NCBI GenBank assembly: GCA_020881915.1
Contig: JAJFPB010000010.1
Coordinates: forward strand, 124,001-188,000
DNA length: 64,000 nt
Source: Paramyrothecium sp. XJ0827
Taxonomy: Eukaryota; Ascomycota; Sordariomycetes; Hypocreales; Stachybotryaceae
Direction: 5' to 3'
The translations under genes were made by a program, and so were the position numbers. The notes beneath the pieces are model-generated. The model was given only the letters and a program-made list of their open reading frames with translations. It made no database searches and was not told where the DNA came from. Below are positions 1,585 through 54,586 of the stretch, one piece after another (position 1 is the stretch's first letter; each line of letters opens with the position of its first letter).

Positions 1585-2392
1585 ATGAAGTTCCTCTGTC
1601 TTCATGGGAATGGCTCAAACAGCACTGTAAGTCAAAGATGTTGGTCATGGTTTGATCATGATGGTGACATTTTAGGGAAGGTCATGCAGCAACAAATGGG
1701 TAATTCCCCCGCCCCGGCCCGTTGGCACCATCGTCTAATTCGGGCCACAGCGGGACTGAGGTACGAACTCGAAGGGGATCATGAGTTCGAGTTTGTGGAA
1801 GGAGTTTTAGCAGGCCCAATGGCAGATGGTAAGCAACCAAATGCACTGCTACTGCTGCTGCTACGTTCGGTCGGCGAAGCCTACTGACCTAACTCTGCTG
1901 ACACCAGACGTCGCGTCCTTGGCCACGCCTGATCAGTCCTTCTACTACTTCTTTGACCCAGCCAACTTCGAACATCTGTCGCAGTCGCTCGCTCAGTTGG
2001 AAGAGTACATCGAAACGGAGGGACCCTTTGACGTCATTATAGCCTTCTCAGCGGGCGCTCTTTTATCCGCCACATACCTCCTGAGCAGGAAAAGCAAGCC
2101 GCTACCATTGCAGTGCGCCATCTTCATCTGCGCGGCTGGTCGACTGCAGCAGGCAGCAGAAGCGATAGGTCTGCACCTAGAGCCACGGGGAAATGAGTTC
2201 GCCATCAACCTACCCACTGTGCATATCCGTGGAGCGGAGGACCATGTTGAGCCAACGGGAAGCCAAGACTTGGCTCGGATGTGCGATCCCTTGCGATGCA
2301 ACATCGTTGCCCACCCCGGGGGCCATGAGTTCCCAAAGGCAGCCTACCTTACAAGGTCGGTGCACGCTATACGAAGGGCCATCGCCCCGTGA
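1585..2392 (+). CDS. FSH1-family serine hydrolase (LovG-like)
   Basis: Alpha/beta hydrolase of the FSH1 family; members beside HR-PKS genes, such as LovG, release the finished chain from the ACP. Exons are 1585-1626, 1681-1699, 1751-1828 and 1908-2392 (207 residues, usual length). Exon 2 is a 19-bp micro-exon; the first intron ends in AAG. This split was chosen because it restores the family's N-terminus (FLCLHGNGSNSTVMQQQM, then LRYEL and FEFVEG) in one frame. Catalytic triad: Ser94 in AFSAG (Ala replaces the usual first Gly), Asp158 in GAEDH and His186 in PGGHEFP. No signal peptide, so probably cytosolic. The PKS in this window ends at its ACP with no release domain, so this protein is the first candidate for off-loading. 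The alternative is an unrelated esterase; the HSL-type hydrolase at 12.1 kb is the competitor. Confidence 0.87.
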
Positions 2393-3429
2393 GCGAGGTG
2401 CTCAAGGGCGGTTGGCTGCTTCGGACCACATGTACTTGTGAGAGGGCGCGGTTGCATCACATCCCAAGCATGCAGCAAGACGGAGGGTTTATCCTTGCAG
2501 CGTTTTTGTCTTCCACATTCACATTATATACGTAGAGACAACAAACGCGATAATTGCATGCATATTGACTTACCGGGGTATCGCCCGTGGTGTGGTGGGA
2601 ATCCTTCCCAGAAAAAGCGGTCACTCGATTTACGTTTACGCATTCATCCGGTCGAGGCTGGGTCGTGACACCCATTGGGGCCTTGGACTGGAAGCCTTGC
2701 AAGGGAGGTGTACTCGATACACCACCCCAATTTTTGTGCCAAGAACAGCCAGATGGCCGACATGTTGCCTTGGGGGCGAATCACGGTAGGAGCAGGGACG
2801 GCCTTGATAGTTGGCAGGTTATATCGGCTCATGCACATGCGCGAAAATATCACTGCATACAGTTGCACTCGGAGCGGCTCTACGATACCCCACTTTGTTC
2901 AACCGTGAGACTGTCCCCCCCTTGTTCATTTTCACTAGAGCCAACAGATCGGCTCGGTAGCCCCGAAGACGAGGCTCCACGGGGACCGGCCGGCTTCGCT
3001 CAACGAATCTCCCCATCTAAGGAGAGCAACCTGCCCCGTCGCACTTTGAAACAGTCGTTGAGTAAGCAAGCCAGTCAGTGCCAAGACGCTCAGTGAGTGG
3101 GAGCGACTGGGAGAGGTGCTGCGACAGCTAGCTGTTCGTCCCGGTACCCACTGCAGTCCAAACTCTGTATCGCAAAGCCCTGTTGGACAAGGGGCATCTC
3201 ATCGTACTACCAGGGCGAATTGATGACTTACAGCGGCCTTGCCCTGTGAAAGCCGGCCCGGACGAGCACTCAAGGAACGCTGAGATTCGTCTTTGGATAA
3301 GCTGTGCTCTTGGGCTGCGTTCTCGTGTGCCTTTTTTTTCCATTTTTTTCTTCTCCATTCGCCGTTATTACCTGCAAGTCTCGTTTCCATAACCGACGCT
3401 GGCCACTCCATAGACATCTCTACTTGACT
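2393..3429 (+). other. intergenic region upstream of the 3HCDH/YWTD gene
   Basis: About 1 kb of balanced composition. Several overlapping short reading frames exist on both strands, but none shows a recognisable motif or splice structure. A pyrimidine-rich stretch at 3330-3360, with runs of T, lies 70-100 bp before the next start codon and is typical of a fungal core promoter. Confidence 0.5.
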
Positions 3430-5034
3430 ATGACTACATGCGCGCCACCTGTCTGCACCGGCCGTATCGTCGTCCTGCTGGGAAACAATAGCGACCTAGA
3501 TTACTCCCTTGCAGCTGCTTGGAAATCTGGAGGTTTCGACGCTGTCATTGTCGGATCTTCTGTCGCAGCTAGCAAGACTGACGAGTATCCTCAGTGCCAC
3601 CACGAGGCTAGCCAAGCGTTCCAGAATGCTTGGCTTGTTGTTGATGTCACCCCAAAATGTCTCTTTTCAACGCCAACTGGGTTAAAAGACTTTGAGGCGT
3701 TGGCTCCATTGGATGCGATCTTCTGCCATAGCTTGGCTGGGACAGCACTGGCAGACGTAGCCGCTTCCCTGAAGCCGACAACGAGACAACGTTTGCTTCA
3801 CATGCATTTCTGCACAACGCTGCATCGGCATGTTGAAGTGGTGGCGGGAGTTGAGACTGAGCCGGCTATCCTCAGCTTCGTGAGAGGCAGACTTCAAGAG
3901 GCTGGCCTGTTCCCTTGGGTTCATGGCGAAGATTCGAACGTTCGAGTTTGTGACCGACTGAACGCATCTTTGAGACGCGAGGTCTGTGCCCTGCTTGAAG
4001 GTGGCGTGGCTTCTCCCAGGAACACAGACACAATACAGGCGAGGGCAACGATCCCAAATGACAGTAGTTTGCAATCTAATGGTCACCATAAAGCATCGAA
4101 ACTGTTCGTTATTGATGTCGGGCTAAGCGCGACGCCTTTCATGTCGGTTCCGACTGCCGGCCGTATATTAGTGACGTCGTCCGACGAAACATCGCCCACG
4201 CGATCCCTCATCTCCGGGCAAGAGTTGCCCGATGGAATTGCAGTTGATCGGGAGATGGGCAGGATTTTCTGGTCCAGTATGGGCTGGCCAGGCACAAAAT
4301 CTGGTGCTTTGTTCTCCTGCGATATTAATGGGGAGAATGTTCAGGAGATAGTCCCCAGGGGTTCCCTCTGGACTCCAAAGCAGCTCACCATCGAGAACAG
4401 AAGCCGCAAGCTCTACTTCACGGACAGAGAGGGTCTGTGTGTGATGCGCTGCAACCTTGATGGCTCGGGTCTGGAGACCTTAATAAGAACCGGTGATAGT
4501 GAGGTCGAACTTGAACGGCTTGACGCTTGTCGCTGGTGCGTTGGGATCGCAGTATCTCAAAGCACAGGGAACATATATTGGACCCAAAAGGGGCCCAGCA
4601 AAGGCGCAAAGGGCAGGCTCTTCAGGGCTAGCATCGATTTGCCGATGGGCGAAAGTGTGGAGACTCGCAGTGACATTGAATGCCTTCTGCGCAACCTGCC
4701 CGAGCCTATAAACCTAGCTCTCGACGAGAAAGAAAGGATGATATACTGGACAGACAGGGGGGAGCTCCCTGTGGGAAACAGTATAAACAGAGTGCCCCTT
4801 AACCTTCTTTCACCTATTCCTTCGGCTAGTAGCATCACGAGCTGGCCGGGCAAAGACTACGAGCTCCTCGTGAGAGACTTGCATGAGGCCATCGGTATCA
4901 CTCTAGACCTGGACAATAGGCATATCTATGCAACAGAACTTGGAGGAAGTGTTTATAGATTTGATATGGACGGGCTAAACGGACGGCCTCTCCGCTTGAA
5001 GCACGGTTCATACGCGGGAATAGCAATAGCTTAG
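3430..5034 (+). CDS. 3-hydroxyacyl-CoA dehydrogenase-like / YWTD beta-propeller fusion protein
   Basis: Single-exon, 534 residues from ATG 3430; the frame stays open to 3304, but that extra stretch is low-complexity and starts in the pyrimidine-rich promoter. Residues 1 to about 215 resemble a worn 3-hydroxyacyl-CoA dehydrogenase. There is a beta-alpha-beta start (VVLLGNNSDLDYSLA, where the family has GxGxxG), a block HFCTTLHRHVEVVAG at about 126 that lines up with the HFFNPxxxxxLVEVV segment, and DRLNASLRREVCALLEGGVAS at about 174 that lines up with the NRLxxxxxxEAxxLxxEGVAS segment. Residues 220-534 carry LDL-receptor class B/NHL-type propeller repeats: KLYFTDREG, NIYWTQ, MIYWTDRGE, HIYATELGG, each with a following xxxDG-type turn. 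No signal peptide or membrane segment. The nucleotide loop lacks the glycines, so catalysis is doubtful. It sits 0.6 kb before the monooxygenase on the same strand. Role unknown. Confidence 0.75.
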   Translation: MTTCAPPVCTGRIVVLLGNNSDLDYSLAAAWKSGGFDAVIVGSSVAASKTDEYPQCHHEASQAFQNAWLVVDVTPKCLFSTPTGLKDFEALAPLDAIFCHSLAGTALADVAASLKPTTRQRLLHMHFCTTLHRHVEVVAGVETEPAILSFVRGRLQEAGLFPWVHGEDSNVRVCDRLNASLRREVCALLEGGVASPRNTDTIQARATIPNDSSLQSNGHHKASKLFVIDVGLSATPFMSVPTAGRILVTSSDETSPTRSLISGQELPDGIAVDREMGRIFWSSMGWPGTKSGALFSCDINGENVQEIVPRGSLWTPKQLTIENRSRKLYFTDREGLCVMRCNLDGSGLETLIRTGDSEVELERLDACRWCVGIAVSQSTGNIYWTQKGPSKGAKGRLFRASIDLPMGESVETRSDIECLLRNLPEPINLALDEKERMIYWTDRGELPVGNSINRVPLNLLSPIPSASSITSWPGKDYELLVRDLHEAIGITLDLDNRHIYATELGGSVYRFDMDGLNGRPLRLKHGSYAGIAIA

Positions 5035-5646
5035 GGAGGTTCAGACCTGGTCAATGCCCGATTCTTGGTGCTCAAGAATCCCTGCAGGATGGTGAAAGGG
5101 TCAGCTCGCAATGAACGCTAGATCAAGTTACTGCCCGTTCATCGGACCAAGCAGATTGTGGTGCTGTTGACAAGGTCTTTGCCAATTTCCCATACGGCTA
5201 AAACGCCGAGTACTGGATGTATGAGTCAAGAAAGAAATCTAGATCCTGACCAAGGAAGCCTTGTTAATTTGCGTGAAGCGTTGAAGATGAGTCGTTTCAA
5301 TGGTATGAGGGGAAGTCATTGCCATATGGCCAACTGCTAACCTTCTCTAAAAAGAGGCTCACCGCCGCTTCTTGATGAGGCGCATGTTCTCGTTTACGGA
5401 ATGCCTCCACGAAACAAATCTCAAATACCGTGTGACCCTTGGCTACCGGCCGGTCCTGTTGAGTGGCGAGGATGTACCTGCATATCGTCGTGGACGCGCA
5501 GAGCTGAGCTACCTTATGCCAAGAACGCTACAGCATATATTACAGGGCTCGAACTGCTTTGCTCGCTACCTCGCCATATTCTCACACCTACGGATCGAGA
5601 TACTGGGCGCTTTCTGGTACTCCCACACCACAAAGCTTTCAATAAC
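5035..5646 (+). other. intergenic region before the monooxygenase
   Basis: 612 bp. The monooxygenase frame is open back to an ATG at 5401, but the extra 82 residues resemble no family N-terminus. I take this stretch as 3' UTR of the upstream gene plus the monooxygenase promoter. No clear motif seen. Confidence 0.45.
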
Positions 5647-7137
5647 ATGAGTGATATCAATATGGAATGCGACGACTCTGCGGGCCTCGTCTCTAAGGAC
5701 GTTCTTATTATTGGGGCGGGACTTGGCGGTATCAACTGCGCCCATCGCCTGGCGACAAAGGCACGAGGCGTGTCGTTTGCCGTCCTCGAAGCCCGTGCTG
5801 ACCTCGGTGGAACCTGGGATTTCTTCCGCTTTCCTGGAATTCGTGCGGATACCGATCTACCAACCTTCATCTTCCCCTGGCATCCATGGCCGTACTCGGA
5901 GAGGATTGCTCAAGGTCATCTCATTCGATCGTTCCTGCGATCGGCGACAGAACGATCTGGCTTGAGCGACAAGATTCTGTTCAACCACAAAGTTATCAGC
6001 GCCGATTGGTCGTCTTCGGCCAGCGCTTGGTATCTCAGCGTCGACTGTCAGGGCCAGAGCAGACAGTTCAAAAGTCGGTTCCTCGTCTTTGCTACAGGCT
6101 ACTACGACTATGACAAGCCCCACAAGCCTGAGCTCAACGGCATCGACAAGTTTCAAGGACGAGTCATCCATCCACAGTTCTGGCCCAAGGACTACGAGAT
6201 CAATTCCGATCAAAAGGTGGCCATCATAGGCAGTGGGGCAACGGCAATCACATTATTCCCAAGCCTTGCCAAAGTGGCTGCGAAGACCACCTTGATACAG
6301 CGCAGCCCTTCCTACGTTGTTTGGGCTACGGGCATCACCCAAGCATCCTCTGAACTTCCTAGATTCATACCGCAGAGCCTCGCCCTGGTTCTTGAGCGGT
6401 TACACTTCATCGTCTTTCCGTGGCTGCTCACTAGACTCACCTTGCGGTTCCCTCGTCTGTCCAGGTACGTACTTCGCCGAGGCATGAGTGCGGCCCTGCC
6501 GCAACGTATCGATCAGCGCACCCATTTCGAGCCGAGCTACGACCCGTGGGAACAACGGGTGGGTATCTCCCCCGATGGAGCTTTTTTCCGCGCGCTTCAC
6601 GACTGCAACACGGAAATCGTCACGGGAAAGATCGAAACCATTCTTCCGGACCAAGTCGTCATGGAAAGCGGCGAAAGAATCCCAACAGACGTCATCGTCA
6701 CTGCCACCGGCCTAACCATGAAGCTCGGCGCCGACATCAAGCTCTACGTTGACGGTGAGGAGGCGGATTTCAAGAGGAGATTCGTATGGCAAGGCACCAT
6801 GTTCGAAGGAATGCCGAACTTGTTCTACATGATGGGCTATGAGAGACATTCCTGGACCCTCAAGGTCGACAACTCGGCCTTCATCATCTGCCGGCTCTTG
6901 AACTATATGAATCGCCGCGGATTGCAGTCTGCCACGCCGCGGCTAAGCCCTGCCAGCCGTGCTAGGCAGGACACGGAACGATTTTGGCAGTTCTCCTCGT
7001 CCTATTGCGTGCGTGCCGAAGATCAGCTCCCCGTGTACGGAACAGAGGCTCCCTGGAAACACAAACACCACCCACCGCTAGACTGCCTACATGCACGCTA
7101 CGGAGACATCTGGACAGGGCTACACTTCCTCATCTGA
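5647..7137 (+). CDS. FAD-dependent Baeyer-Villiger-type monooxygenase
   Basis: Flavin monooxygenase, 496 residues without introns. The first Rossmann motif GAGLGG is at 23-28 (FAD), followed by an acidic strand end (VLEARADLGGTW, about 45-56). The Baeyer-Villiger fingerprint FxGxxxHxxxWP is matched exactly by FQGRVIHPQFWP at 169-180, and the second dinucleotide motif GSGATA (NADPH) starts at 195. Such enzymes insert oxygen next to a ketone or oxidise heteroatoms; here a late polyketide modification is likely. ATG 5647 was chosen because it puts the FAD motif about 22 residues from the start, as usual; the upstream ATG 5401 would add 82 residues of no recognisable character. Same strand as the fusion protein before it and the SDR after it. 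The fingerprint also occurs in some N-hydroxylating relatives, so the reaction itself is not proven. Confidence 0.9.
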   Translation: MSDINMECDDSAGLVSKDVLIIGAGLGGINCAHRLATKARGVSFAVLEARADLGGTWDFFRFPGIRADTDLPTFIFPWHPWPYSERIAQGHLIRSFLRSATERSGLSDKILFNHKVISADWSSSASAWYLSVDCQGQSRQFKSRFLVFATGYYDYDKPHKPELNGIDKFQGRVIHPQFWPKDYEINSDQKVAIIGSGATAITLFPSLAKVAAKTTLIQRSPSYVVWATGITQASSELPRFIPQSLALVLERLHFIVFPWLLTRLTLRFPRLSRYVLRRGMSAALPQRIDQRTHFEPSYDPWEQRVGISPDGAFFRALHDCNTEIVTGKIETILPDQVVMESGERIPTDVIVTATGLTMKLGADIKLYVDGEEADFKRRFVWQGTMFEGMPNLFYMMGYERHSWTLKVDNSAFIICRLLNYMNRRGLQSATPRLSPASRARQDTERFWQFSSSYCVRAEDQLPVYGTEAPWKHKHHPPLDCLHARYGDIWTGLHFLI

Positions 7138-8020: not shown

Positions 8021-9092
8021 ATGGAGCTTTTTCGACTGAATGGATGTGCCGTTGTCGTTGGTGTGAGTCCAGAAATCGCGTGATTAGTTCTTGCCGCCAA
8101 TTGCAAATGTTCTATTCAGCAGAAACTAATAAATTCATGTCACAGGCTGCCAGCGGGATTGGACGGGGAGTAGCCGCTAGCTTCGCCGAGATGGGTGTCT
8201 CGGGACTGCTCTGCGCCGACATCAATGAAGAGGGCGCGGCCGAGACTGCTAACCATTGTAAGGCGTTGGCTTCTAATGGCTACTGCAAGATCGTGTTCTA
8301 TCGTGTCGACAATACCAATGCTCAATCTGTTCAATCGATGGTCGACTACGCCAGAGATCAGCTTGGAAGAATCGACTACTTCATCAATAGCGCTGGGGTA
8401 CAAACTCCTACCGCCTAGTCTTCTTGATCAAATACTAGAGACGCTGACCGAAGCTTCGCTACGCAGGTCGACGTAAAGGATGACTTCTCGTTCGAGAATA
8501 CGCCCGCAGAGGATTATGAGCGGGTGGCAAGCGTCAATGCGAAGGGCGCACTTTTTCTCATGCAGGCCGCAGTCAAAGTCATGAAGACACAGGAGCCATT
8601 GCAGGTCGACATGGGAAGATATGGACATCGCGATTCCGGACGAGGCTCGATTGTCAACATCGCTTCGATCATGTCACGAATTCCGGTCCCCAACAAAACA
8701 TCGTACGTGGCGTCAAAATATGCGCTGTTGGGTCTGACAAAGTCGTGCGGTAAGTGAATTCATGTGCACTATTTCGATCGCCTTCTGCCAAGACGTCCTG
8801 AGCTGACTTGATGGACTTATGATTCCCAGCTCTGGAGAATAGATTCGAGGGGATTCGCGTGAATGCCATTAGCCCAACGTGGGTTCGCACTCCAATGTAT
8901 GACAATGATTGCATGCGCAATCCCGTCACTCCAATGGCCGTGGAGAAACTAGCGGGAGGCAGACGGCCGATGGAGCCAAACGAAATCGCAGCGGCGTGCT
9001 TGTTCCTGTGCGGACCGAGCTCCGTCTCCATCACAGGCATCAACTTACCCATCGATACGGGGCTCGGCCTTGGGGTGGGGGCTGCCCTGTGA
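8021..9092 (+). CDS. short-chain dehydrogenase/reductase (SDR)
   Basis: NAD(P)-dependent classical SDR, 279 residues in four exons: 8021-8062, 8146-8397, 8467-8749, 8830-9092; introns 8063-8145, 8398-8466, 8750-8829. The first intron splits the cofactor motif: VVVG before it and AASGIGRG after it, giving the usual GxxxGIG. NSAG (about 123-126) stabilises the fold, the catalytic Ser is in NIASIMS and Tyr/Lys are in YVASK, all present. The C-terminus ends with GINLPIDTG, the family's GxxxxxDGG-like end. The start ATG 8021 is the only one that leaves 14 residues before the glycine motif. It follows the monooxygenase on the same strand. A ketone reduction or alcohol oxidation in the pathway is likely; substrate cannot be told. 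Confidence 0.9.
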
Positions 9093-9285
9093 TGGTCAGT
9101 CTGAACCATTAAAATTCGACCACTTGGTAGATAAACGTAGGAACTGTCCGTGAACCTTGAGGTAGCTCACCAATTGCACACGAATAAAGTGACAGAGGCA
9201 AGGTGTACGACAACAAGACACTGTCATTAAGCTTCAAGTCTCCATTACTCTAAGAGATAGTATGCATAACTTAAGTTATTGCCAG

Positions 9286-11154
9286 CTAGGACGACACCAC
9301 AGCCTCGTTGTCTGGGCTGTCCTCAAGAGCCTTTGTCGTCAAGTCAACTCGCTCGAGCTTCATGAATAGCATACATAAAAACCCCAGTCCTGCTCCCGCA
9401 ACATTCAGATAGAAGACTCTGCCCGCGTTCCGTGAAACGACGCTCGCAATAACATGCTTGGTCTCACCTCCGAGTTGGTCAATAATCTCGGAGCTTATGC
9501 CGCTGATGGTCGACTGGATTGCCTCAAGGGGGAGCTCCGGATACGCGGTCGCGATATCGTTGGTGGACGTGATGATCAAAACAGATGTGGCAATACCGAG
9601 TGAGATGGCTAGGGAAGCCATTTGAGCGCATGTCAAGAATGCAGACACTTCGCCTTCGGACTTACGCGGCACCTTGGCTTGGCCGACGGTAAAGCCTAAA
9701 TTGACGATCGGTCCGCAACCACAGCCTGCGAGAACCATATAGCCGCATAGTGCTCCTCGACTGATATCATAGTCGATTGTAGTCATAAGCCCAGCTCCAA
9801 CAAGTAACAGCACGCTCGTCACTGCGTACCATACCTTGTACACAGGGTATTTGGGGAAGAGTGGTCCAAGAGGTACTGCGATGAGGAGCATGGCGCCGAT
9901 AAACGGGAGTGTCCAGAGAGCTGCTTGTAGTGGAGTATCGTCATGGGCGAATTGGAAGAGAAGTGGGAGGGTATAGATGGTGACGGTAATGTAGGAGATC
10001 GCGATGCCTGTCCAGCAGAAGAACAACACCATATCCAAGTTACCCACAAAGTGGACAGGAAATATCCTATCCTTTAGGAAGAGTCGGTATCGTTGCTGGA
10101 CACTAAAAGCTGCCCATGCAACAACTGCAGCGATATACAGACCAATCATCCGACCGCTTCCCCAAGGATAGAGAACGCCGCCGAACCCGAGGATAGCAAT
10201 AACGCAGAAGACGCCTCCCAGGAACAGCCCTGCACCGACAAAGTCAACCTGGCGAGCTCGTAGCCACAAAGGGCCCTTGGCCATAGGTGGGATCACTGGG
10301 GGGATGTACCATAGGAGGGCCGGCGTCATAAGGGCTGCAATAACGATATTGATGTAGAAAGCCCAACGCCAGCTAGCAGAGGACGCAGCAAAGGCGCCGC
10401 CAACGAGAGGGCCTAGAACAGCGCCGAGAGCCCAGGCAATGCCGACATTATTAAGATACGCAGTCCGTTCGGAGGGAGTCGTCATGGCCGAAATGATATT
10501 AATAGTGCCAACGTAGATGCCCGAGCCTCCCACCCCAGCCACGACGCGGCCGACGATGATGGCCTCAGTAATCGGAGCGGACCCGATAATGGCGGAGCCG
10601 ACCTCAAACACACCCAGGGCAATAAGGTACAGTATTTTGTTGTCGAAGAGGTTGTTAACTTTACCCCTGTTCCATCCAACAAAGTCGTTAGCGTGAGCGC
10701 CGCCAGGTAGAGTTGGGAGGATGTGTGACACTAACCAGAACGGATTGCTCCCCGTCTCCGTCATTGGGTAGGCGGCCGAAATCCATGGCAGCATCTCGAT
10801 ATGGCCGAGCGATTCAATCATGCTGGGTCTCACGGTGGCGATGACGGTGTTGTCCAAGGCGTAAAGGAACGTCGAGGAGATCAACGCCACCACGATGAAA
10901 GCCCAGGCGAGGCCTTCGACCGTTCGGTGAGACTCAAACCCAGCATCGATATTGTGTTGGTCCACGGTGGCGGGGGCTTGGTCGACGGCACCATCACTGG
11001 CTGTCATTTTCTCACTAAAGTCGGGTTTGACATGGGACAAGTTGGTGTCTGTACCCCTAGCATGCATGTGGTAGGGGGCGCCACTGCTGGGCAGAGCGCC
11101 CGCGGCCTCTTCATCTTTGAGGTCCATGGTTTGAGGGAACGAGGACGAGGACAT
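9286..11154 (-). CDS. MFS transporter, DHA2-like (14 membrane segments expected)
   Basis: Drug:H+ antiporter-type export protein of the plasma or vacuolar membrane. A single 69-bp intron, 10667-10735 (GTTAGT...ACAG), has a length divisible by three and no stop, so an unspliced reading passes through unnoticed with 23 foreign residues; splicing restores SNPFWGKVNNLFDNK, the expected sequence after segment 2. From ATG 11154 the protein is 599 residues; the frame is open to 11379 and an internal Met at 11127 is also possible. Membrane helices begin at AWAFIVVALISSTFLYALD, with the family's LDNTVIAT in segment 1. GRVVAGVGGSG and the GAVLGPLVGG (motif C-like) regions follow. The N-terminus is long and hydrophilic. 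It points against the neighbouring hydrolase. Export of the polyketide is the obvious but unproven role. Confidence 0.9.
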   Translation of the reverse strand: MSSSSFPQTMDLKDEEAAGALPSSGAPYHMHARGTDTNLSHVKPDFSEKMTASDGAVDQAPATVDQHNIDAGFESHRTVEGLAWAFIVVALISSTFLYALDNTVIATVRPSMIESLGHIEMLPWISAAYPMTETGSNPFWLVSHILPTLPGGAHANDFVGWNRGKVNNLFDNKILYLIALGVFEVGSAIIGSAPITEAIIVGRVVAGVGGSGIYVGTINIISAMTTPSERTAYLNNVGIAWALGAVLGPLVGGAFAASSASWRWAFYINIVIAALMTPALLWYIPPVIPPMAKGPLWLRARQVDFVGAGLFLGGVFCVIAILGFGGVLYPWGSGRMIGLYIAAVVAWAAFSVQQRYRLFLKDRIFPVHFVGNLDMVLFFCWTGIAISYITVTIYTLPLLFQFAHDDTPLQAALWTLPFIGAMLLIAVPLGPLFPKYPVYKVWYAVTSVLLLVGAGLMTTIDYDISRGALCGYMVLAGCGCGPIVNLGFTVGQAKVPRKSEGEVSAFLTCAQMASLAISLGIATSVLIITSTNDIATAYPELPLEAIQSTISGISSEIIDQLGGETKHVIASVVSRNAGRVFYLNVAGAGLGFLCMLFMKLERVDLTTKALEDSPDNEAVVSS

Positions 11155-12135
11155 GGGAATGGCCACTTGCTTGTGTTCTCTGGCCGGAAGGTTCTGGTCG
11201 CTTCGCACAAGCAGTGACGAGCGTTGTGTTTCGACTGAGGTGTAGACGGCGCGCGAGGACAGAGAAAGTTGAGACAAAGAGATTTTTCTGCAAGCGACCG
11301 TGGTCACATTGCCCCGGTTGAACACCACGAACCCACGTAGGCTAGATTGGTCGTCGGTTGCAACAATGCAACCTGGCAATCAAAAATTTGTACGAAATCC
11401 TTGGGGGCCAAGCGGCATAGCAGCTTCTTCTTCCCCGGGCCATTTGCCATGCTTCAGCGGATCTGTGTGGAACTCGTTTGTCGTACTGTACGAGTCCTAG
11501 TATGGGATCCAACGGGGGTAAACAACCAACATGGAGCTCGGAGCACAGGTAACATCCGGTTGTATTCGTAAAACTCAAGCAGTTGGTTGTGAAAGACCAA
11601 GGTGACACGAACCCTACCCACCCACCCCCCCCCCACGCCGAAGGGCTGGGCCGCGGAAACCGGGCGAAGTCCCCGACCCCCAAGCTCCATGTGCGCGCAT
11701 CAACCGAAAGGGCACACCTGCAGGCACACGAAGCAGGATTGAGAAGAGCGCCCAACGTGTTGGTAGTGCCCATGCAACCAACCTGCGATGCAACCAACCT
11801 GTTTCGTTATAAGCATAAGCATATCAACAAAGCCGAGCCGCATCGCCGTCGTTGACAAACGCCGAGTCCCTAGAGGAGAGCTTTAGAGTGGGTGAGACAG
11901 GGGTTGGGGCCGCGCTGCGCTCGCCGGCGCATGGTTCGTGCCCGGCTACTCTTTAGGACCTACCTACCCTATATGGTCATACAGCCAGCACAGACCCTAC
12001 CTACCCTATATGGTCATACAGCCAACACAGACCGTCACATTTTGTCCAAAGGCGTGGGAATGAAACAAGCACAATTGATGGCAACAAGAAGAAGAAGAGG
12101 ACGAGGAAAAAAGGAAAAACCAAAAGTGGTTCATC
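11155..12135. promoter_or_regulatory. divergent promoter region, MFS transporter / HSL hydrolase
   Basis: 981 bp between diverging genes. It contains a C-rich run at 11616-11636 and the 37-bp tandem duplication at 11961-12034, listed separately. The MFS frame extends about 225 bp into it without an obvious signal for an earlier start. No coding family recognised. Confidence 0.5.
11961..12034. repeat. tandem duplication, 37-bp period, two copies
   Basis: Copies begin at 11961 and 11998 with TACCTACCCTATATGG and differ by one base near their ends (CCAGCACAG against CCAACACAG). They lie 100-175 bp upstream of the hydrolase start, inside the shared promoter, so they would double any site within the unit. 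Confidence 0.9.
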
Positions 12136-13272
12136 ATGTCCAAGGCAATGCAGGTTTCGTCATCGAAAGCATCGTCGGCCATTGGTCTGGTGCTTTCCAT
12201 TCCAGCTCAAATCGTCACCAAATTTTTAAGTGGCTCATGGGACCGCGCCCCCGGATGGTCGCTATATCAACTGGTCATGGCCTCTCTTGCCCGCAGAGTC
12301 ATCCAGTTCAATGCTCTCATCCAGGCACCGCAGAGTCTGCCTCTCACATCTGGCCCTCAGAGACACAGGTTCCAAGTCGTACATGTCGCAGCGTTGTGGT
12401 TGTACAGAAGCCCGCTGGACAGCGGAGCGACCCCGGAAACCATCGGCGGGACATGGTACTCGGAGCCTCCCCCAACACCGATCAAGCTGCCCTCTTCGTC
12501 ACACATACTCCTGCACTTTCACGGAGGGGCGTTTATCACGGGCGACGGGAGGGATGATACTCTCGGGTTCCTTTGCTCGACGTTGCTAGGTCAAGATGGA
12601 ATCACCGCCGTCTTCGCCCCGCAGTATCGACTTGCATCGCGACCGGGACGTCACGCCTTTCCTGCCGCACTTCAGGATGCTTGGACAGCCTACCTGTACT
12701 TGATACAGGATCTCAAGGTGCCTCCCACCAACCTCGTGCTTTCCGGGGATAGTGCCGGCGGCAATCTCGTAATTGGTCTTCTTCGACTTCTCGAGGTTCA
12801 TGGCCGAGAGCTACGAATTCCACCGCCGCATAAGGCAGTCCTGATTTCCCCGTGGGTATCGCCTAAGGCCGCCAAGGCACCCGAGGTTACCGTGACGAGC
12901 AATCCCAACTATTCGACAGATTGGATGCATCATAGCCAGTTGATCTGGGGTGCCGCGGCGTATGCGGGCTCAACGCCAGTAGAGGACCCTTACATCTCCC
13001 CCCTGGGACATGCTTTCGGGACCTCGGTTCCGATAATGGTTACTTACGGGGAGTTTGAGTTATTCGAAATGGACATAAAACGATGGGCTAAGGAGATGGC
13101 CGGGGTTGATGGCAATGAGGTGCAGCTACTTTGCGAGCCACAGGCTCCCCATGATACCCTGCTTTTGGGAGACGCAATAGGCTGGAGTGCAAGCGCCGAG
13201 TTTGTGGCCGCTTCAATTGGATCCTTCATAAGATCCAGTTTAGCGGCTCGAGACACGGGTGGAAACAACTAA
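12136..13272 (+). CDS. alpha/beta hydrolase, hormone-sensitive-lipase type
   Basis: Esterase-like enzyme of 378 residues with no intron. The HSL oxyanion motif HGGAF is at 129-133 and the nucleophile motif GDSAGG at 204-209 with Ser206. The catalytic His is in QAPHD near residue 350. The acidic member is probably in TYGEFELF, where a Glu stands in the usual Asp/Glu zone. The N-terminus (VLSIPAQIVTKFLSGSW) is moderately hydrophobic but not a clean signal peptide. Such enzymes hydrolyse or transfer acyl groups in fungal clusters (ester removal, lactone opening, sometimes chain release). It is head-to-head with the MFS gene and tail-to-tail with the enoyl reductase, 122 bp away. Substrate unknown. 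Confidence 0.87.
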   Translation: MSKAMQVSSSKASSAIGLVLSIPAQIVTKFLSGSWDRAPGWSLYQLVMASLARRVIQFNALIQAPQSLPLTSGPQRHRFQVVHVAALWLYRSPLDSGATPETIGGTWYSEPPPTPIKLPSSSHILLHFHGGAFITGDGRDDTLGFLCSTLLGQDGITAVFAPQYRLASRPGRHAFPAALQDAWTAYLYLIQDLKVPPTNLVLSGDSAGGNLVIGLLRLLEVHGRELRIPPPHKAVLISPWVSPKAAKAPEVTVTSNPNYSTDWMHHSQLIWGAAAYAGSTPVEDPYISPLGHAFGTSVPIMVTYGEFELFEMDIKRWAKEMAGVDGNEVQLLCEPQAPHDTLLLGDAIGWSASAEFVAASIGSFIRSSLAARDTGGNN

Positions 13273-13394
13273 GTGGTCTTCAAGCACCTATCAGAGTTCA
13301 TCACGAGAGGTGGGAGTGACATGTTTAATTTAGTCTAATTCCAATATACGGGAACTGATACGAATCATTCTGTACTCATGCTTCCTCCAGCAGC

Positions 13395-15830: not shown

Positions 15831-17220
15831 ATGTCCGCACCAACTGATGGCGCCGAGTTGCCTCCAGGCTCCTTCGATGACCGATCTCCTCCTTTGGTTG
15901 CTCTTTGCATTGCCATGATTGTCGTAGTTACAGTCGCGATCATGCTTCGCTTCACTTCGCGACTTATCTCAAACAGCTCGCCCGGCCATTTCCGGAGCCT
16001 TTGGTGGGATGATTGGACAGCCCTGATATCCACGGTAGGTTTTGTTCTGGGTCGGGGACATCGTGTCATGTTCGCTAATCCGAAGCGTTGAATTAGATCT
16101 TCATGCTGACGCAGCTTATCATGACTTTGATCATGGTTGGCTTGGGAGCTGGAAAGCATATCTGGGTCATACCACCACCGGACGTCGTCAAGTTCCTACG
16201 CATGCTGTTCGCCGCGTACTTCATCTACGATATACATCTCGCAACGGCTAAAGCATCTGCCTTGTTCTTCCTCTCTCGAATCTTTCCGACTGAAGCATCC
16301 CCGCGATGGTTCAACAATGCAATCATCATCACTCACGCCACCAACGTCGCCTGGTTCATTGGCATCGTCCTGGGCACTTTCCTCCAGTGCAATCCTGTCA
16401 AGAAGAACTGGGATCCGATGACGCCTGGGAAGTGTAGCGATGCGTCGGCGCTCTTCCTGGGTAGCGCTGTCCCTAGCATTGTCGTTGACCTTGCCATCTT
16501 GTTGATCCCAATGCCAAAAATCTGGACTTTAAAGATGACGCGGGCTAGAAGGCTGGCTGTGATTGGCATTTTCCTGCTCGGATACTGGTAAGCACTCTTA
16601 TTGACAGGCATTCTGGATATGGAGGATGGAGAACTGACCATTGCAGTACTATCGTCGTGACGCTAGGGCGACTGATTACGGTCATCAAAATTGGAGATGA
16701 TATCACTCGAGACATAACCTGTAGGCTTCTGCATTCCGAACTGCTTTCTCTTCAGGCACATTCTAACTCGTAGACAGATGAAGCCGCGCCGTCCTTCTAC
16801 TGGTTCACGATCGAGACGCCAACAATCCTCGTCAGCATCTGTATACCAGCTCTACTGTCTCTGGGCCGCTTCCTAGGCGCCTCGTACTTCAAGCCTTTGG
16901 CAAGTAAGATCTCGTCGGTGTGGTCGAGTCAAAGCCGAGGAACTATTGTGAGCAAGACAAGTGACTTTATCAAGCCAAACAACAGCAACGTGTCTTCACG
17001 CATTGCATCCTCCAAGTCAAGGCAGGCTACCCGCTCTGAGCTCAATACAACCGCTTCCAACGAGAGTCAGAGCAGGATATACTTGCCGACTCAACAGAGT
17101 GGAAACTACTCAGTCGAAGTGAGCGGGTGGGAGATGCAAGATCAACCGCCCAGACGTCAGAGCCAGGTTGACGCCATCAGAGTTCAGCAAGACGTGGAAG
17201 TCAAAGCTTCGCAATGGTAA
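15831..17220 (+). CDS. rhodopsin-domain integral membrane protein (PTH11/SAT4-like)
   Basis: Four exons, 15831-16034, 16097-16587, 16647-16720 and 16778-17220 (introns 16035-16096, 16588-16646, 16721-16777), give 403 residues. The layout is that of fungal rhodopsin-domain proteins: a short N-terminus, helix 1 (VALCIAMIVVVTVAIML), the WWDDW motif at the start of helix 2, then further helices including LIMTLIMVGLGAGKHIW, MLFAAYFIYD, NVAWFIGIVLGTFLQC, LFLGSAVPSIVVDLAILLIPMP, AVIGIFLLGYCTIVVTLG and TILVSICIPALLSLGRFLG. The cytosolic tail of about 115 residues is rich in Ser, Gln and Arg. Members sit in many clusters without a known job; receptor-like or transport roles have been suggested. It lies between the trans-ER and the PKS, on the PKS strand. 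Confidence 0.88.
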
Positions 17221-19216: not shown

Positions 19217-22200
19217 ATGCCAAACCCAAGCGGACATCCGGATAGGGCCTCCTCCCTTAATTTACCCGGCATCGATGGCGATGGAGCTGACCCGATTGCC
19301 ATCATTGGCTTCTCCTTCAAGTTTCCTGGTGAAGCAACCGGTCCAGAGGGACTCTGGGATATGTTAAGTAACAGGAAGTGTGCCGCAAGAGGATTCCCGG
19401 GAAGCCGCTTGGACGGAGCGGGCTTCTTGCACAAGGAGAACCGGACGGGTGCTGTAAGCCAACAATTATCACAGTATCTACCTAGTCTCATCGATCAGTA
19501 TGCTAAGACCGTGTAAAGTTCACCGTCCAAGGCGGCCATTTTATCGAGGAAGACCTCACCGGGTTTGACGCGGAATTCTTTGCAATCTCTCCCGCTGAGG
19601 CGACGGCCATGGACCCGAGTCAAAGGTGGCTTCTTGAGACGTCTTACAGAGCATTAGAGAATGGTAAGTTAAGCCCAGACATGAGCCTTCATAGCGGCTT
19701 TGTTGTGTGTTAGATAATAACTATCACAGCCGGGTTGCCACTTGACCGCGTGGCCGGAACCTCCACAGGCGTGTATACAGGCTCTTTTGGTTCCGACTAT
19801 ACCACACAGATCTATAGAGACCCTGAGACATTCCCTAAGTATGCCTCGGTTGGTGTCGGGCTAAGCATGCTTGCCAATCGTTTGAGCTGGTTTTTTGATC
19901 TCAGAGGCCCAAGTATAGGCATGGACACGGCATGTTCGAGCGGAGCTACTGCGTTCGACATAGCTTGTCGCGCTTTAAAGGATAAATCAGTGAACATGGT
20001 AAGTTTCTCCAGTACACAGTTCCATTCACGAAGCTTCTTATCCTCACAATAGTTCCAGAGTTTGGTTGCCGGGTGCAATTTGACCTTTGCCCCGGAGGTC
20101 TACCTTTCCATGAGCGACCTTGACTTCTTATCATCAAGTGGTCGCTGCTTTTCATTCGATCACAAGGCTAATGGTTATGCGAGAGGCGAAGGTATTGTAG
20201 TGTTGGTCCTCAAGAGACTCTCGGATGCTGTTAAAGATGGGGATGTCGTTCGTGCCATCGTCCGATCCACTGCATGTAACGAGGACGGAAGAACCCTGGG
20301 CATAACACAGCCAAGTGGCGCCGCGCAGGAGCAGTTAATACGCTACACGTACCAGACTGCCGGTCTAGACATGTCACGCACGCGCTACTTTGAGGCTCAT
20401 GGTACAGGTACTCCGCTTGGAGATCCACGCGAGGCCCAGGCAATTGGGTCGGCATTCCGACAACACCGCACAGATCGTGAACCCTTATACATGTAAGATA
20501 ACTGCTACATCGCAGCTATTCTGGAGCACTGCAGAAAGCTGACACTACACAGCGGCGCTGTCAAGTCCAATATAGGTCACTTGGAAGGAGCAAGTGGCCT
20601 CGCCGGTGTGGTCAAGACAATTTTAGTTCTTGAGAAAGGGATGATCCCTCCAAATGCAAACTTCGAGAAACTCAATCCCAAGATTGATAGCGGATATCTG
20701 CGACTGAAAGCAAGTGATGATGATGATGGCTGCACCATTCTCCTTCTCGAACAGGCACTGATTGTGGTGAATCGGATGCTAACCATTCTACTGTAGTTCC
20801 CGGAAGAATGCACACCATGGCCATCTGAAGGACTGCGGCGAGCCTCTATCAATTCATTTGGCTATGGAGGAGCAAACTCGCATATCGTTCTCGACGACGC
20901 CTACCACTACATGAAGCTCAGAGGGCTAAAGGGGAAGCACAATACGCTAGTGACACCGGGAGTGACCTCCCAAAACCAAGTCCACGGACATGAGGGGGCT
21001 AAGGCCGACAGCCGAACGACCCTGCTGATCTGGTCTACCGCTGACAAGGACGGCATCACTCGTATATTGAAGTCGTACGGCACGTATTTGAAGTGCCTGG
21101 AGGGCCTGTCGGCCTATGAGCAAGATGAACTCCTCAACGATCTGGCCTATACATTGACTGTGCGCCGGACACATCTTCCCTGGCGGTCCTACGTTGTGCT
21201 CGATCTAGACAGGGGTTGGCCTAACCTCGAGTTGCAAGCCTCCATCCCTGTCAGAGCATCACCGAAAGTTCCGCGGCTTGGATTCGTGTTCAGCGGGCAA
21301 GGCGCTCAATGGTGTGGCATGGCCTGCGAATTGTTTCACTTTGAGTCGTTCAGCAGGGAAATACAACAGGCGGGGTCGTATCTTCGAAGCCTCGGTTGCA
21401 ATTGGGATGCCGCAGGTAAGTGGTGCGGTTAACTTGGTGTTTTGGATAAGGCTAACAGTTGGCAGAGGAGTTATTGAAGTCCGAGAGCGAGTCACGGATC
21501 AATGAAGCTGAAGTCAGTCAGACACTTTGCAGCGTTATCCAAGTAGCCATGGTCAATCTGTTGTGCGAATTCTCTGTCCTACCTAGCGCGGTGGTGGGCC
21601 ATTCATCTGGTGAGATCGCTGCCGCGTAAGTCTCATAGTCTCCACGCCACAACCCCACGTTACAATCCTACACAACACTGCTAACAACGGGTTAGATATG
21701 CCAGTGGATACCTGACACAAGAGTCCGCCTGGAAGGTAGCCTATTTCAGGGGTGTTTGCTCGGCTAAGCTGGAATTAGATGCTTCGGCTACAGCGAAAGG
21801 TTCTATGATTGCTGTGGGTGCGTCAGAAGCCGACCTCGAGGACCAGATTCAGCGCTTGGGCAAGGCAGGTTCCTCCTTTGGCCTTTCGCTCGCCTGTGTC
21901 AACAGTCCACGTAGCGTCACCATTTCTGGCGAGGAGAGTTTGGTGGATGCTCTGGAAGCCGAATTCGATAAGAACGGGTTATTCGCGCGGAAGCTGCCCG
22001 TCCCTTTGGCGTATCACTCCAGGCAAATGGAATCAATCTCAGAGCTGTACACGACAATGATCGGGGAGATAGCCTTCCGAGATTGTGCACAGCGGATACC
22101 AATGGTATCTTCAGTTACGGGTAAGGTCGTCCGCATAGACCAGGTTGCAAAGGCTGCCTATTGGACATCGAACATGGTATCGACAGTCAGATTCTCCGAA

Positions 22201-25200
22201 GCTATCACCGTCATGTGCGCAGCCAAGGATGCTGTGAAGAAGCTTGATAGGAGTCACTTGATAACTCCAGTGGTTGACCACATTGTGGAAATTGGACCAC
22301 ACTCGGTTCTTCGGGGTCCCATCGAAGACATACTTAAGTTAAGCCTACAGCGATCATCAATTGGCTACAGCAGCCTCTTGAAACGAAATTTACCCTCTCT
22401 TGATACTTTCCTTTCCGCCATGGGCCAGCTGTTCTCTCATGGCTATAAGCCAGACCTCCTTGCCATCAATAAGTCCCTCGGTCGTTCCTCCGGGTCGCTG
22501 AAGGCAGATCTCCCACAATATCCCTTCGATCGTGGCCAAAGATTCTGGCACGAAGGTCGTCTAAGCCAGAACTATCGACTTAGAGAACGGGGACTATCAA
22601 ACATGATTGGTACACGTACTAATGATTGGAATCCCTCGGACGCCCGTTGGCGACATTTCCTCCGTATACCCGACATGCCTTGGGTCGAGGACCACGTTAT
22701 CCACGGCTCTACACTGTTCCCTGGAGCCGGAATGCTCGTCATGGCCATTGAAGCCGTAAAGCAGTTGGTTGCCACCCACAATCCCGAACCGGTCAGCTTT
22801 ATCCTTGAAGACATCGCATTTCTGAATCCAATCAGAGTTGTGGGCCAAGCAGGGCAAGAGCCAGAGGTTCAGGTATCACTTCGAGAGCGGAGCGCGGCCC
22901 AGACCAAGCCTCATTGGGAGTTTAATGTACGGACCTATATGGACACCAAGTGGTCCTTAAACTGCCAAGGCATAATCACAGCTGATCTCTCTGATGTGGA
23001 TGCCGGAAATTGGGAAGCTGTCAAAGATGCGGAGCAACGACAAGCCATTTTGAAGCCGTTTGCGACAAAAGCGCAAGATGTTTGCGTTTCCAATGTTGAC
23101 TCGCAGACGATGTACAGTTTTCTACGCCAACAAGGATACAGTTATGGACCGGCATTTCAACGGCTTGAGCAACAAAAGTATAGCGACACTGGAGATGCAA
23201 CAGCCATGGTCAGCCTTTTACATCCACCGGGGGCTGATGATATTGAACCTCTCACAATCCACCCAACTTGTCTGGACTCCATATTCCAACTTGGCCTAAC
23301 TGCAAGAAGTGCTGGAGGGTCCGAAGCAATCGACCTGAGCCTCCCGGCTAGTATACAGACATTGTGGATCAGCAATCAGGGCCTTGGCGGTCCAGAAGAT
23401 GATGCAGTGATTGCTTATTCCTCCATCACGCATGATACTAATCAAGGCTTTACTATGTCTGGTCTCGCCGCCGCTAACGACAACTCCCCACAGCCTAAAC
23501 TGTGGTTCGAAGGCTTCGAGCTGAGGACGATCAAGGCCAAAGCTCCCAAGCCACCAGCCTTGCCCAATTCGCGACAGTGGCACATGACTGTTAACTTTAA
23601 GCCTGACGTAAGTACAATGAGTTCCCAGAAGCTCGACGAGTATCTCAAGGCTCTACATCCTGCACGGCCCGAACGCGCGCGCCTTCGCAAGGATTTGAAC
23701 AATCTTGTTCTCGCTTCTCTAAAGAGTCTGGTTAGACAAGTCGAACTTGATGCAATAGACACTACTAAGTTTGATGTGTGGCACAAGCATTACTGGCGCT
23801 GGGCTCAATATCAACTGGGAACCAGGCGGATGAAGCCATCCAAGGTTGACTGGAGTTCAAACGACTTTCTGACGGAGGACTCTGATATCCAAAAGCTCAG
23901 ACAGCTCGCTGAACAGAACCCTGTGGGCAAAATCTACTCACTCGTCTCGTCCAGCCTGTTGAGCCTGTTCAGAGGCCAGGTCACCGCAATGGAATTGTAC
24001 GTTGCCACAAACCAGTTTAAAAATATGTACGAATTCGAATACCAGTCCAACGGTAGAGAGCGAGCCACCAGCCTTCTAGATCTCCTGGCTCACTCAAATC
24101 CTGACCTCAAGGTTCTCGAGATTGGTGGTGGCACGGGCGGAGGCACGCGATACTTTACAAGAGCTTTTCGCAACCAGCCGGGGTCGTTGTCGGGATCTTT
24201 GCGTTGCAGCAATTATCATTTCACGGACATTTCCCCCGCCTACTTTCCCGCCGTGCAGCAAGAATTCATGGACTGTTTGTCGCAAATGAATTTTTCCACC
24301 CTCGACCTGGATGAGGACCTTGGCGAGCAAGGCTTCGGAGAGGCTTCCTATGATGTCATCCTGGCCGTGGATGTGCTTCATCTTGCTTCCGACTTGATCA
24401 AAAGCCTGTCTCAGATTCGCAAGACCCTCAAGCCTGGCGGCAAGCTGATCATGCGCGAGATTTTCGAGCCTACCGGATGGACTCTGGGCTTTGTATTTGG
24501 ATTGTTTCCTGGCTGGTGGACAGGGGTCAACGGACAGGATGGACTCAACCGTACTCTAGGTCCAAGTATTACCCTGGAACAATGGAGGCACCTATTCCAA
24601 ATGGCAGGCTTTGATGACTATGATATCTGCTTACGCGATGAGGACTCGCTTTTCTCTGATGAGAACAGTGGCTGGGTCGTCGTATCCAGACAAAAGGTCG
24701 AAAGCCTACCCGTACAATCATCAGTGTTCGATAAGCCATTGAATCAGGGACTGATTATTGTGGATCCCAACTCCGAGGAGCAAAAAGCTTTCGCCTACAA
24801 GCTTGAAGCTATCCTTGGGAGTTTAGTTGGTCAGATTCCCGTTGTTTTGGATCTAGCTGCTGCCGCCACGTCACTTTCTGGAGGCAAGATACCCCCTTAC
24901 GCAGTGACGATTTCTCTGCTCAACTATGACCCCTCCTTCTTGAGGTCCAAACTGAGCCAAGAGTCGTGGCCACAACTACAGACTCTGATGCGATTCGCTC
25001 GCTGCCAACTCTGGGTTTCGATAGGAGGCAGTGTGCCACATCCTGATATAGCCATGATGGAAGGGTTGGCGCGGACACTGAGAGCCGAGCAATACGGTCT
25101 CCACCTCGTCACTCTATCTCTGGAGAGTCCAGAGAGTATTGAGTCGGTAACCAAGGTCATTCAAGAAGTTGCAGTCTTCAACTCGACCTCATCTGGTGAG

Positions 25201-27710
25201 CCACGCCCCTATGAGCAGGAGTACGTCGAGGTTGATGGTACACTGCACACCCGTCGACTCGCTGAAGGTAGAAGTCTTAAGGCGACGGTGGATAATCTCG
25301 TGGTTCCATACGAGCTGTCATCAGACGTACTATGGCGGCAACCACCCTTCACTATGTTCACCTCAAGTGAAGAGTTGGGTGATACTCCTCACTACGTTGA
25401 GTCTTTGCATGCGCAGACCGCATACGTCAGAGAACTTGATAATGACGAGAAGGAGGACGAAGAATTAACTATTATGGTACGCGAGACGGTGCTGGACTGC
25501 GTGGATGTAGCATGCTTCTCTAACAACATGCTGATTCAAGGAGGAGAGGATACTCAGCAAGGCTTAGGCACATTTTGTGCTGGCGTGGTGACGGCTATCA
25601 CCGCCCAATCATCGTTCAACTTGGGCGACCGCGTCTGCGTAAGTCAGCCTGGAGTGTATCGATCGCACTTAAAGGTTTTGGGGAGAGAGGCTGTTCCGAT
25701 TCCGCAGTCTCTAAGCTACAGAGAAGCTTGTCTACATATTCCACCTCTGAGGGCTGCCCTGAGAGGATTGCTCTACATCGGGAACGTGAAGATTGGCGAC
25801 CAAGTCCTAGTGCATGACGGAATAACGCCAATCGGACAAGCGACTATTCACGCACTATATCACTTGGGGGTCTCGGACTTTTGGGTAACGGTCACAGATG
25901 GGGAAGAAAGTGATTGGACTAGTACCACACTCGGTGTTTCTCAAGAGCGCATCATCCCAAAGACCTGGTTTAGCAAGCATAGCATGCTGACATCACATCT
26001 AATGGGGCGATTCGACCTGGTCATACAAGCCAACTTTGGTGGCCCAGAACCACTGCTTACCAGAACCCTCAAGGGATCCGGCCGATACATTACTTTTGGC
26101 GTATCATCTAGTTCCAATTTGACCTTCAGAACGCCTCGCTCCACTACCGCGACTTCGCCACATAATATACAGTTCGCTACGGTGTATGTGGATCAGCTGT
26201 CGAAAGACGAAAGCCTCGACCGAAAGAAGAACTTGAAGTCGGCGATGATTCTTGCTATGGAGACCTTGTTATCATCATCGATATTGAGAAACCCATCTTT
26301 ATCTTCCCGGTCTCAGGTCACCTATTTTCCTGCCTCAGATTTGCGTGGAATATTCGATCACCTGCGTCGCCTAAAGACAATGGAGCGCATTCACGTCAAA
26401 TTTGATAACATGGATGTTGTGCCGGTAAGTGCCCGCCACAGTAGGCTTCTCGAGGTTCTGCTAACATATGATGAAGATTCATTTGCAGATCAGGCCACGG
26501 CAGTTCTTAGACTCCACAGGTACTTACATTATTATTGGCGGCTTAGGTGGCTTAGGTCGGGCCATCGCCCGCTGGATGGTTAGTCGAGGAGCAAGGTCCC
26601 TTATTCTGCTGTCCCGTTCCGGCCCAAGGAACAATCCAGCTGCTCTTGAACTTATCAACGAACTTTCTGCTCGCAAAACTATAATCCAGACCCCCGAATG
26701 CGACGCTGCCAACAGGGAGAAGCTCAAGGCCACCTTAGAGAACTGTTCACTAGACTTTCCACCTATTAAAGGTTGCATTGTCGCATCCATGGTTTTGAAG
26801 GTACTGCTTCCGTTTCTCAAAAATAACCCGCCAACGATTTCTTGGGGCTGATCTTACTCTGTAGGAGAGAATATTCGATGGGATGACTCTACAGGATTGG
26901 GACGCGGTGCTTCGGCCCAAGGTTGCGGTGTCCTGGAATGTGCATGAGCTTCTTCCAAAGGGCCTTGATTTCTTCGTGATGCTGTCCTCGATTGGAGGCG
27001 TCGCTGGCAGAGTGTCTCTCTCCGCCTATAATGCTGGAAACGTGTATCAAGACCAGCTGGCGCATTATCGGCACATGCTTGGCGAGCGTGCTACGTCCTT
27101 CGACCTGGGTCCTATCATTGACGAGGGCTATCTCACGCAACACGGTGATCGCAAAGCCGACTTCCGCCGCATCAACATGACAGAGATGGTGTATACCAAA
27201 GAGATCCTAGCCATGCTAGATATATATTGTGATAACACGTTTCAGCCACTCACAGCCGATGATACGGGCAAATCATGGCAGCACGTCATTGGCATCCGGC
27301 CACCTGCGCACTGGAAGAACGCTTCAGAGGTGCCATTCACCTTAACCCAGCCACTTTGGGGCCATATGCGCCACCTGCATAAGTCCACCGAGGCGGTAAT
27401 GGCTGAAAGTGCTGTAACTCACAAGAAACCGTTTGATGTCATTAGAGAAGCCATGTCTGCTGCTGCGAACTCTGGTGAGGCAGCCACTGTTGCGAGTGAA
27501 GCCATCCGCCAACGTGTGTCTACAACTCTTGCTATCCCTAAAGAGCGTCTGGACTTGCAAACACCCCTAATTAGCTACGGCATTGACTCGTTAGCGGCTA
27601 CGGACCTTCGCAACTGGATTGGCACGGTTTTCCATGTGGATATTCCCATATTTAATATTCAAGGAGGGGCCTCAATGATAGACATAGCACAGACTATCTC
27701 TTTGAAGTAG
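19217..27710 (+). CDS. highly reducing type I polyketide synthase, KS-AT-DH-MT-(psi)ER-KR-ACP
   Basis: Ten exons: 19217-19453, 19519-19663, 19730-19998, 20059-20492, 20553-20709, 20797-21415, 21466-21625, 21696-26424, 26489-26800, 26865-27710; 2,635 residues, a normal HR-PKS length. Intron 5 (20710-20796) is GC-AG. KS about 24-430: Cys196 in DTACSSG, His331 in EAHGTGT, His371 in KSNIGH. AT about 540-860: Ser667 in GHSSG. DH: His1007 in [12 protein letters not shown] and Asp1201 in LDSIFQ. C-methyltransferase: [11 protein letters not shown] near 1481-1491. ER about 1880-2230, cofactor loop [11 protein letters not shown] near 2047-2057 in place of a GGVG-type motif, so probably inactive. KR: GGLGGLG at 2267, Ser2395/2396, Tyr2409. 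ACP: Ser2596 in GIDSL. No TE, reductase or NRPS part follows. It would build a reduced, C-methylated polyketide with the trans-ER (13.4 kb) and the FSH1 hydrolase (1.6 kb). Start 19217 is the first ATG before [14 protein letters not shown]. Confidence 0.95.
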
Positions 27711-49075: not shown

Positions 49076-49117
49076 TACTATAACTATAGAAAAAAGAAAT
49101 ACTATATATAGGACTAT
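49076..49117 (+). other. mutated gag zinc-knuckle (CCHC) trace
   Basis: In one frame the C-x2-C-x4-H-x4-C spacing is intact, but each Cys position is TAC/TAT where TGC/TGT would be expected, the His position is TAC for CAC, and a TAG stands inside. Every change is C-to-T or G-to-A at CA/TG, the RIP signature. Confidence 0.75.
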
Positions 49118-54570: not shown

Positions 54571-54586
54571 AGGGAGGGAAGTATTA
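54571..54586 (+). other. polypurine tract before the 3' LTR
   Basis: AGGGAGGGAAGTATTA runs up to the 3' LTR start at 54587. Such a tract primes plus-strand synthesis. A matching AAAGAGAGAAGTAT ends the window at 64000 in the second element. Confidence 0.75.

Follow-up and report, generated by a model that had tools for sequence, protein, structure and literature searches.

What does a fungus make with a polyketide synthase (PKS) whose own enoyl reductase (ER) domain has degenerated, when it lies among genes for a separate ER, a putative releasing hydrolase, a Baeyer-Villiger monooxygenase (BVMO) and a YWTD propeller protein? The question is raised by a 64,000-nucleotide stretch of the Paramyrothecium sp. 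XJ0827 genome (51.8 Mb assembled in 15 contigs; contig JAJFPB010000010.1, here C1:124001-188000), which we call the window and number from its first letter. The locus is a real biosynthetic gene cluster, common in part to other fungi. Taken as a whole it is probably an orphan cluster built on a PKS with an inactive ER (psi-ER) and a trans-acting ER, whose product, once released, would be modified by the BVMO together with other oxidoreductases and in which the propeller would be a core protein other than a dehydrogenase. Gene models were obtained with a home-made splice search and then corrected by eye against relatives.

The polyketide assembly line and its candidate monooxygenase

A preliminary description, made from the DNA sequence alone, had placed a psi-ER PKS, a trans-ER and an FSH1 hydrolase together with a BVMO-type monooxygenase, and this grouping was borne out by Pfam, by PDB matches to LovB and LovC and by both BVMO fingerprint motifs. 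The PKS was searched against Pfam, relatives and PDB as a 2629-aa model, from which the final 2630-aa model differs at two exon joins. Pfam domains for ketosynthase (KS), acyltransferase (AT), dehydratase (DH), methyltransferase (MT), ketoreductase (KR) and acyl carrier protein (ACP) are present, with motifs in the gene model that we take to be the catalytic ones, and the best PDB match is LovB (1.2e-245). The ER region had no Pfam match to ADH_N or ADH_zinc_N, and a simple motif search found that the canonical NADPH glycine motif is absent, which marks the domain as degenerate. By the same simple search, none of the 46 best PKS relatives has the motif, against 42 of the remaining 74 among the best 120 listed.

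Enoyl reduction would be supplied from outside the synthase. The trans-ER, searched against Pfam and PDB as a 324-aa first model, matches ADH_N (5.3e-15) and ADH_zinc_N (3e-10), has LovC as its best PDB match, and is 50.6% identical to the ER part of P0125, a protein of Monosporascus. At an E-value of 0.001, Pfam found nothing behind the ACP of the PKS, whether thioesterase, reductase or condensation domain, which makes the FSH1 hydrolase the natural candidate for releasing the chain in trans. The FSH1 model reads AFSAGA, AEDHV and HPGGHEFP, to which we assign, as an assumption, the Ser-Asp-His triad; it shares 37% identity with the N-terminal part of P0275, an FSH1-PKS model from Xylaria curta. 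A related PKS from Apiospora marii (P0279, 3050 aa) carries in addition the berberine-bridge-type oxidase domains PF01565 and PF08031, as a fusion or a merged model.

LovB ends in a condensation-type domain after its ACP, and LovG belongs to the FSH1 family. The lovastatin label used at first thus fits in part: the psi-ER PKS and trans-ER have LovB and LovC as best PDB matches, but LovB's condensation domain has no Pfam counterpart in the window PKS, and on this ground strict LovB membership was rejected; for the hydrolase, the likeness to LovG is one of family membership only. In fusarielin synthesis by Fusarium graminearum, a reducing PKS with an inactive ER (FSL1) works with a trans-ER (FSL5) and a thioesterase (FSL2), and loss of the PKS, FSL2 or FSL5 abolishes fusarielin, according to the available text of PMC6274466. 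By analogy, FSL1/FSL5/FSL2 is the nearest described logic, nearer than LovB because no Pfam domain follows the ACP of the window PKS. The likeness lies in an ER-inactive reducing PKS, a trans-ER and a separate releasing hydrolase, with the mechanism compared by description and not by FSL sequence; the fusarielin pathway includes an epimerase and a P450, whereas the window has a BVMO, a YWTD propeller and alcohol-oxidase-type GMC genes. Two other comparisons were set aside. Cytochalasans are made by hybrid PKS-nonribosomal peptide synthetase enzymes, and in the accessible part of a Hypoxylaceae survey a trans-enoyl reductase is mentioned once, for cytochalasans (PMC8403587). LAM1 of T-toxin was not used as a model, since the passages available from that report give a PKS2/LAM1 linkage and its text contains neither YWTD nor hydroxyacyl (PMC10128009).

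The candidate BVMO matches Pyr_redox_2 (4.3e-12) and FMO-like (1.1e-7) in Pfam, and in PDB a putative monooxygenase (4.7e-30) followed by steroid and phenylacetone monooxygenases (about 1e-28). It carries both type I BVMO fingerprints, as we take these motifs to be defined: FQGRVIHPQFW and GGTWDFFRFPGIRAD. Elsewhere in the genome there are three near full-length relatives with 36-40% identity (C9:4956096-4957520, C10:2326286-2327710 and C3:1113971-1115410).

Conservation of the core in other fungi

Linkage in other fungi was assessed by a proxy for gene maps, in which matches on contigs of equal size were taken to share one contig, among the best 120 matches each for the YWTD protein, the BVMO and the PKS. 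Among these, four YWTD-BVMO pairs, three YWTD-PKS pairs and one BVMO-PKS pair shared a contig, involving six YWTD matches. The matched contigs measure 16.1 kb, 55.7 kb (Monosporascus sp. GIB2), 69 kb (Poronia punctata), 866 kb (Xylaria intraflava), 3.05 Mb (Durotheca rogersii) and 9.8 Mb (Apiospora marii), and the named fungi with relatives of these genes on common contigs are mostly Xylariales. Monosporascus locus tags stand near each other: 009399 (YWTD), 009401 (PKS) and 009403 (a merged trans-ER and BVMO model). The last, P0125, and the FSH1-PKS model of Xylaria curta, P0275, are probably merged gene models that reveal gene neighbours.

The trees of the three proteins agree with these contigs. 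All six contig-matched YWTD proteins group with the window protein in a clade of 12 rows (support 88). In the BVMO tree, a 6-row clade (support 99) unites the window with the 16.1 kb contig, Apiospora, Durotheca, Monosporascus and a short-contig protein, and so holds the BVMO of all four matched contigs; in the PKS tree, a 6-row clade (support 100) of the window, Apiospora, Monosporascus, X. intraflava, Poronia and X. curta holds the PKS of all three matched genomes. Apiospora is nearest to the window among the named clade members in every tree (YWTD 92, BVMO 94, PKS 100), with Monosporascus, Xylaria and Poronia forming the other side of the clade in the YWTD and PKS trees.

Several observations weigh against a common inheritance. 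Equal contig size is only a proxy, and a weak one for contigs as long as those of Apiospora (9.8 Mb) and Durotheca (3.05 Mb); the Apiospora PKS, P0284, lies on a 7.9 Mb contig, unlike the YWTD and BVMO genes of that fungus; the YWTD clade support of 88 is too low to be starred, and five of its 11 other members have no matched contig among the best 120 matches per list; and the FSH1-PKS of Xylaria curta falls outside the 6-row PKS clade. Even so, co-inheritance of PKS, BVMO and YWTD genes is well supported at the sequence level by the common contigs together with the agreeing trees. The co-occurrence in related genomes that the preliminary description had looked to as a sign of one cluster was found for these three genes, and for the trans-ER by way of the merged Monosporascus model. 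Membership of the trans-ER in the inherited core is thus suggested by one other genome, and linkage of the FSH1 gene is weakly backed by the merged Xylaria curta model.

A propeller protein with a degenerate dehydrogenase half

The gene at 3430-5034 was described initially as a fusion of 3-hydroxyacyl-CoA dehydrogenase (3HCDH) and YWTD propeller, and a working dehydrogenase would be expected to reduce or oxidise a beta-position of the polyketide. The dehydrogenase part of that description did not hold. PF02737 (3HCDH) reaches 15.4 bits against a Pfam cut-off of 22, and PF00725 gave no match up to an E-value of 10, its C-terminal dehydrogenase domain appearing as a gap in the alignment. Aligned with 3HCDH-YWTD relatives, the protein has LLGNNSDLD in place of the glycine-rich NAD motif, has lost the catalytic Ser and has Asp for the catalytic Asn. 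The His and Glu stretches typical of these dehydrogenases can still be aligned, and the structure model keeps an alpha/beta arrangement in the N-terminal part, which speak for a working dehydrogenase; nine relatives in the YWTD clade are, however, propeller-only proteins of 316-346 aa without any dehydrogenase part. With the NAD motif replaced, PF02737 below cut-off and PF00725 absent, we rejected an active 3HCDH and regard a functional dehydrogenase as highly improbable. Since the NAD motif, the Ser and Asn residues and the C-terminal domain were lost while the propeller was kept, the protein probably has a different role.

The six-bladed propeller fold is conserved by structure model and fold comparison, and the closest folds among the matches listed are YWTD propellers of animal receptors. 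Fungal 3HCDH-YWTD fusions of about 600 aa (P0005, P0013, P0061) have the same propeller, with 41-45% overall identity to the window protein; they carry PF02737 and PF00725, whereas the window protein has neither above cut-off. Within the clade, the Apiospora relative has an NAD-domain match and no C-terminal dehydrogenase domain, and nothing of the dehydrogenase is left in the relatives from Monosporascus, Xylaria, Poronia and Durotheca. A search of the genome for a second YWTD copy found only the 3430-5034 gene, a count that is a lower bound. Two further short YWTD matches, P0110 (from a 963-base contig) and P0113 (from one of 1,246 bases), are not in the window clade and were treated as fragments.

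This series, from Apiospora through the remnant in the window to propeller-only proteins, could represent step-wise loss of the dehydrogenase from a 3HCDH-YWTD fusion, and might have produced a pericyclase, a cyclase, a lactone-handling enzyme or the like that works on the product of the PKS and belongs to a new class of fungal pathway enzymes, a proposal that we put forward tentatively and consider doubtful. Propeller-like proteins are found in fungal polyketide pathways: in the available passages, PvL7 is described as resembling a six-bladed beta-propeller and hetero Diels-Alderase activity is reported for its homologue Asr5 (PMC8851701), and AsR5 is described as required for meroterpenoid production, with an inconclusive in vitro assay (PMC5958101). 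The window protein is likened to PvL7 and AsR5 by description only; AsR5 was not among the best 50 matches of either YWTD fold search, in which other propellers were listed.

Cluster membership and the proposed pathway

The interval first proposed for the cluster, 1585-27710, runs from the FSH1 start codon to the PKS stop, with its genes in the order of Table 1. Every gene named in the preliminary description is present, but both GMC genes lie outside this interval, and the HSL-type esterase, the MFS transporter and the rhodopsin-like protein had not been listed. The two GMC proteins, one on each side of the interval and both encoded on the minus strand, are 46% identical; in PDB, GMC2 comes closest to a GMC oxidoreductase (6e-130) and to alcohol oxidases (3.7e-128).

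Table 1. Genes of the cluster and candidate members, in window positions.
Feature	Position	Strand	Basis
GMC1 oxidoreductase, 5' part, candidate cluster member	1..1092, extends left past window edge to about C1:123129	-	reading frames of contiguous stretch
FSH1-family serine hydrolase, 4 exons, 207 aa; putative LovG/FSL2-like role	1585..2392	+	Pfam FSH1 2e-31, gene model
YWTD six-bladed propeller protein, degenerate 3HCDH N-terminal remnant, one exon, 534 aa	3430..5034	+	sequence, structure model, fold comparison
type I BVMO-like flavin monooxygenase, one exon, 496 aa	5647..7137	+	Pfam, PDB, both fingerprint motifs
short-chain dehydrogenase/reductase (SDR), 4 exons, candidate cluster member	8021..9092	+	Pfam adh_short_C2 5.3e-50, gene model
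MFS transporter, candidate cluster member, 5' end uncertain	about 9286..11157	-	Pfam MFS_1 5e-28
HSL-type alpha/beta hydrolase (esterase), candidate cluster member	12136..13272	+	Pfam Abhydrolase_3 7.8e-30; PDB esterase Est8 8.1e-19
trans-acting enoyl reductase (LovC-like), 3 exons, 349 aa	13395..14556	-	PDB LovC 6.7e-38 (324-aa first model)
fungal-rhodopsin-domain membrane protein, candidate cluster member	15831..17220	+	Pfam Fung_rhodopsin 4e-56
highly reducing PKS KS-AT-DH-MT-psiER-KR-ACP, 10 exons, 2630 aa	19217..27710	+	motifs, Pfam, LovB match
GMC2 oxidoreductase, alcohol-oxidase type, candidate cluster member	27926..29972	-	Pfam GMC_oxred_N 1.7e-33; PDB match

None of the genes modelled between GMC1 and GMC2 was seen to encode a transcription factor; a Zn2Cys6 transcription-factor gene lies about 15 kb beyond the PKS (42700-44364, plus strand, Pfam 5.4e-5). 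GMC2 is adjoined by a glycoside hydrolase family 28 (polygalacturonase-type) gene (31046-32413, minus strand, Pfam 1.9e-33), and the sequence to the left of GMC1 (C1:114001-124000) holds a LysM-domain small protein, a methyltransferase-like open reading frame and an MFS-type one. At the far end, window positions 48001-64000 are very AT-rich (13-32% GC in 2-kb steps, against about 50% on the cluster side) and resemble an AT-rich island.

From these gene identities we infer the chemistry and its order. The PKS would build a reduced chain, possibly with C-methylation, and the LovC-like trans-ER would supply enoyl reduction; the FSH1 hydrolase would probably free the chain as an acid, and the BVMO would then probably insert oxygen beside a ketone. 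The SDR and the GMC alcohol oxidases, if members, would set ketone and alcohol states, the HSL-type esterase, if a member, would open or form an ester (or lactone), and the MFS transporter would serve export.

How many of these genes take part is a matter of weighing the linkage evidence, which covers only the PKS, BVMO, YWTD protein, trans-ER and, weakly, FSH1. It could be that these five alone belong together, with the SDR, MFS, esterase, rhodopsin-like and GMC genes as chance neighbours, but the SDR, MFS and esterase genes sit between the BVMO and the trans-ER, within the conserved block, and belong to families that are common in tailoring or export. We therefore hold the restricted set to be somewhat unlikely, though it keeps appreciable weight. 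The cluster might also make a metabolite that is already described, with most genes matching a MIBiG entry, and the PKS relatives P0280 (Bionectria ochroleuca) and P0281 (Pestalotiopsis microspora) have indeed been deposited as single genes or clusters. Both fall outside the 6-row window PKS clade, however; the PKS names in the matches listed give no product save likeness labels such as Lovastatin nonaketide synthase, and a matching pathway was not found in the open-licence literature, which makes a known product decidedly unlikely.

Orphan trans-ER PKS clusters are common, and the kind of cluster proposed here, an orphan psi-ER PKS with a trans-ER, is a known one; its tailoring set and conserved propeller protein are the part for which no description was found in the open-licence literature. 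In listings of that literature ordered by the number of matching terms, the leading papers contained no YWTD. Cluster-finding programs are prone to overlook pathway enzymes without recognised domains, among them Fsa2, AsR5, CtvD and Trt14, as stated in the accessible text of PMC11109268. The YWTD relatives show dehydrogenase decay beside a highly conserved propeller, and a conserved accessory protein of this sort, which has no clear Pfam domain, is a sign of new chemistry.

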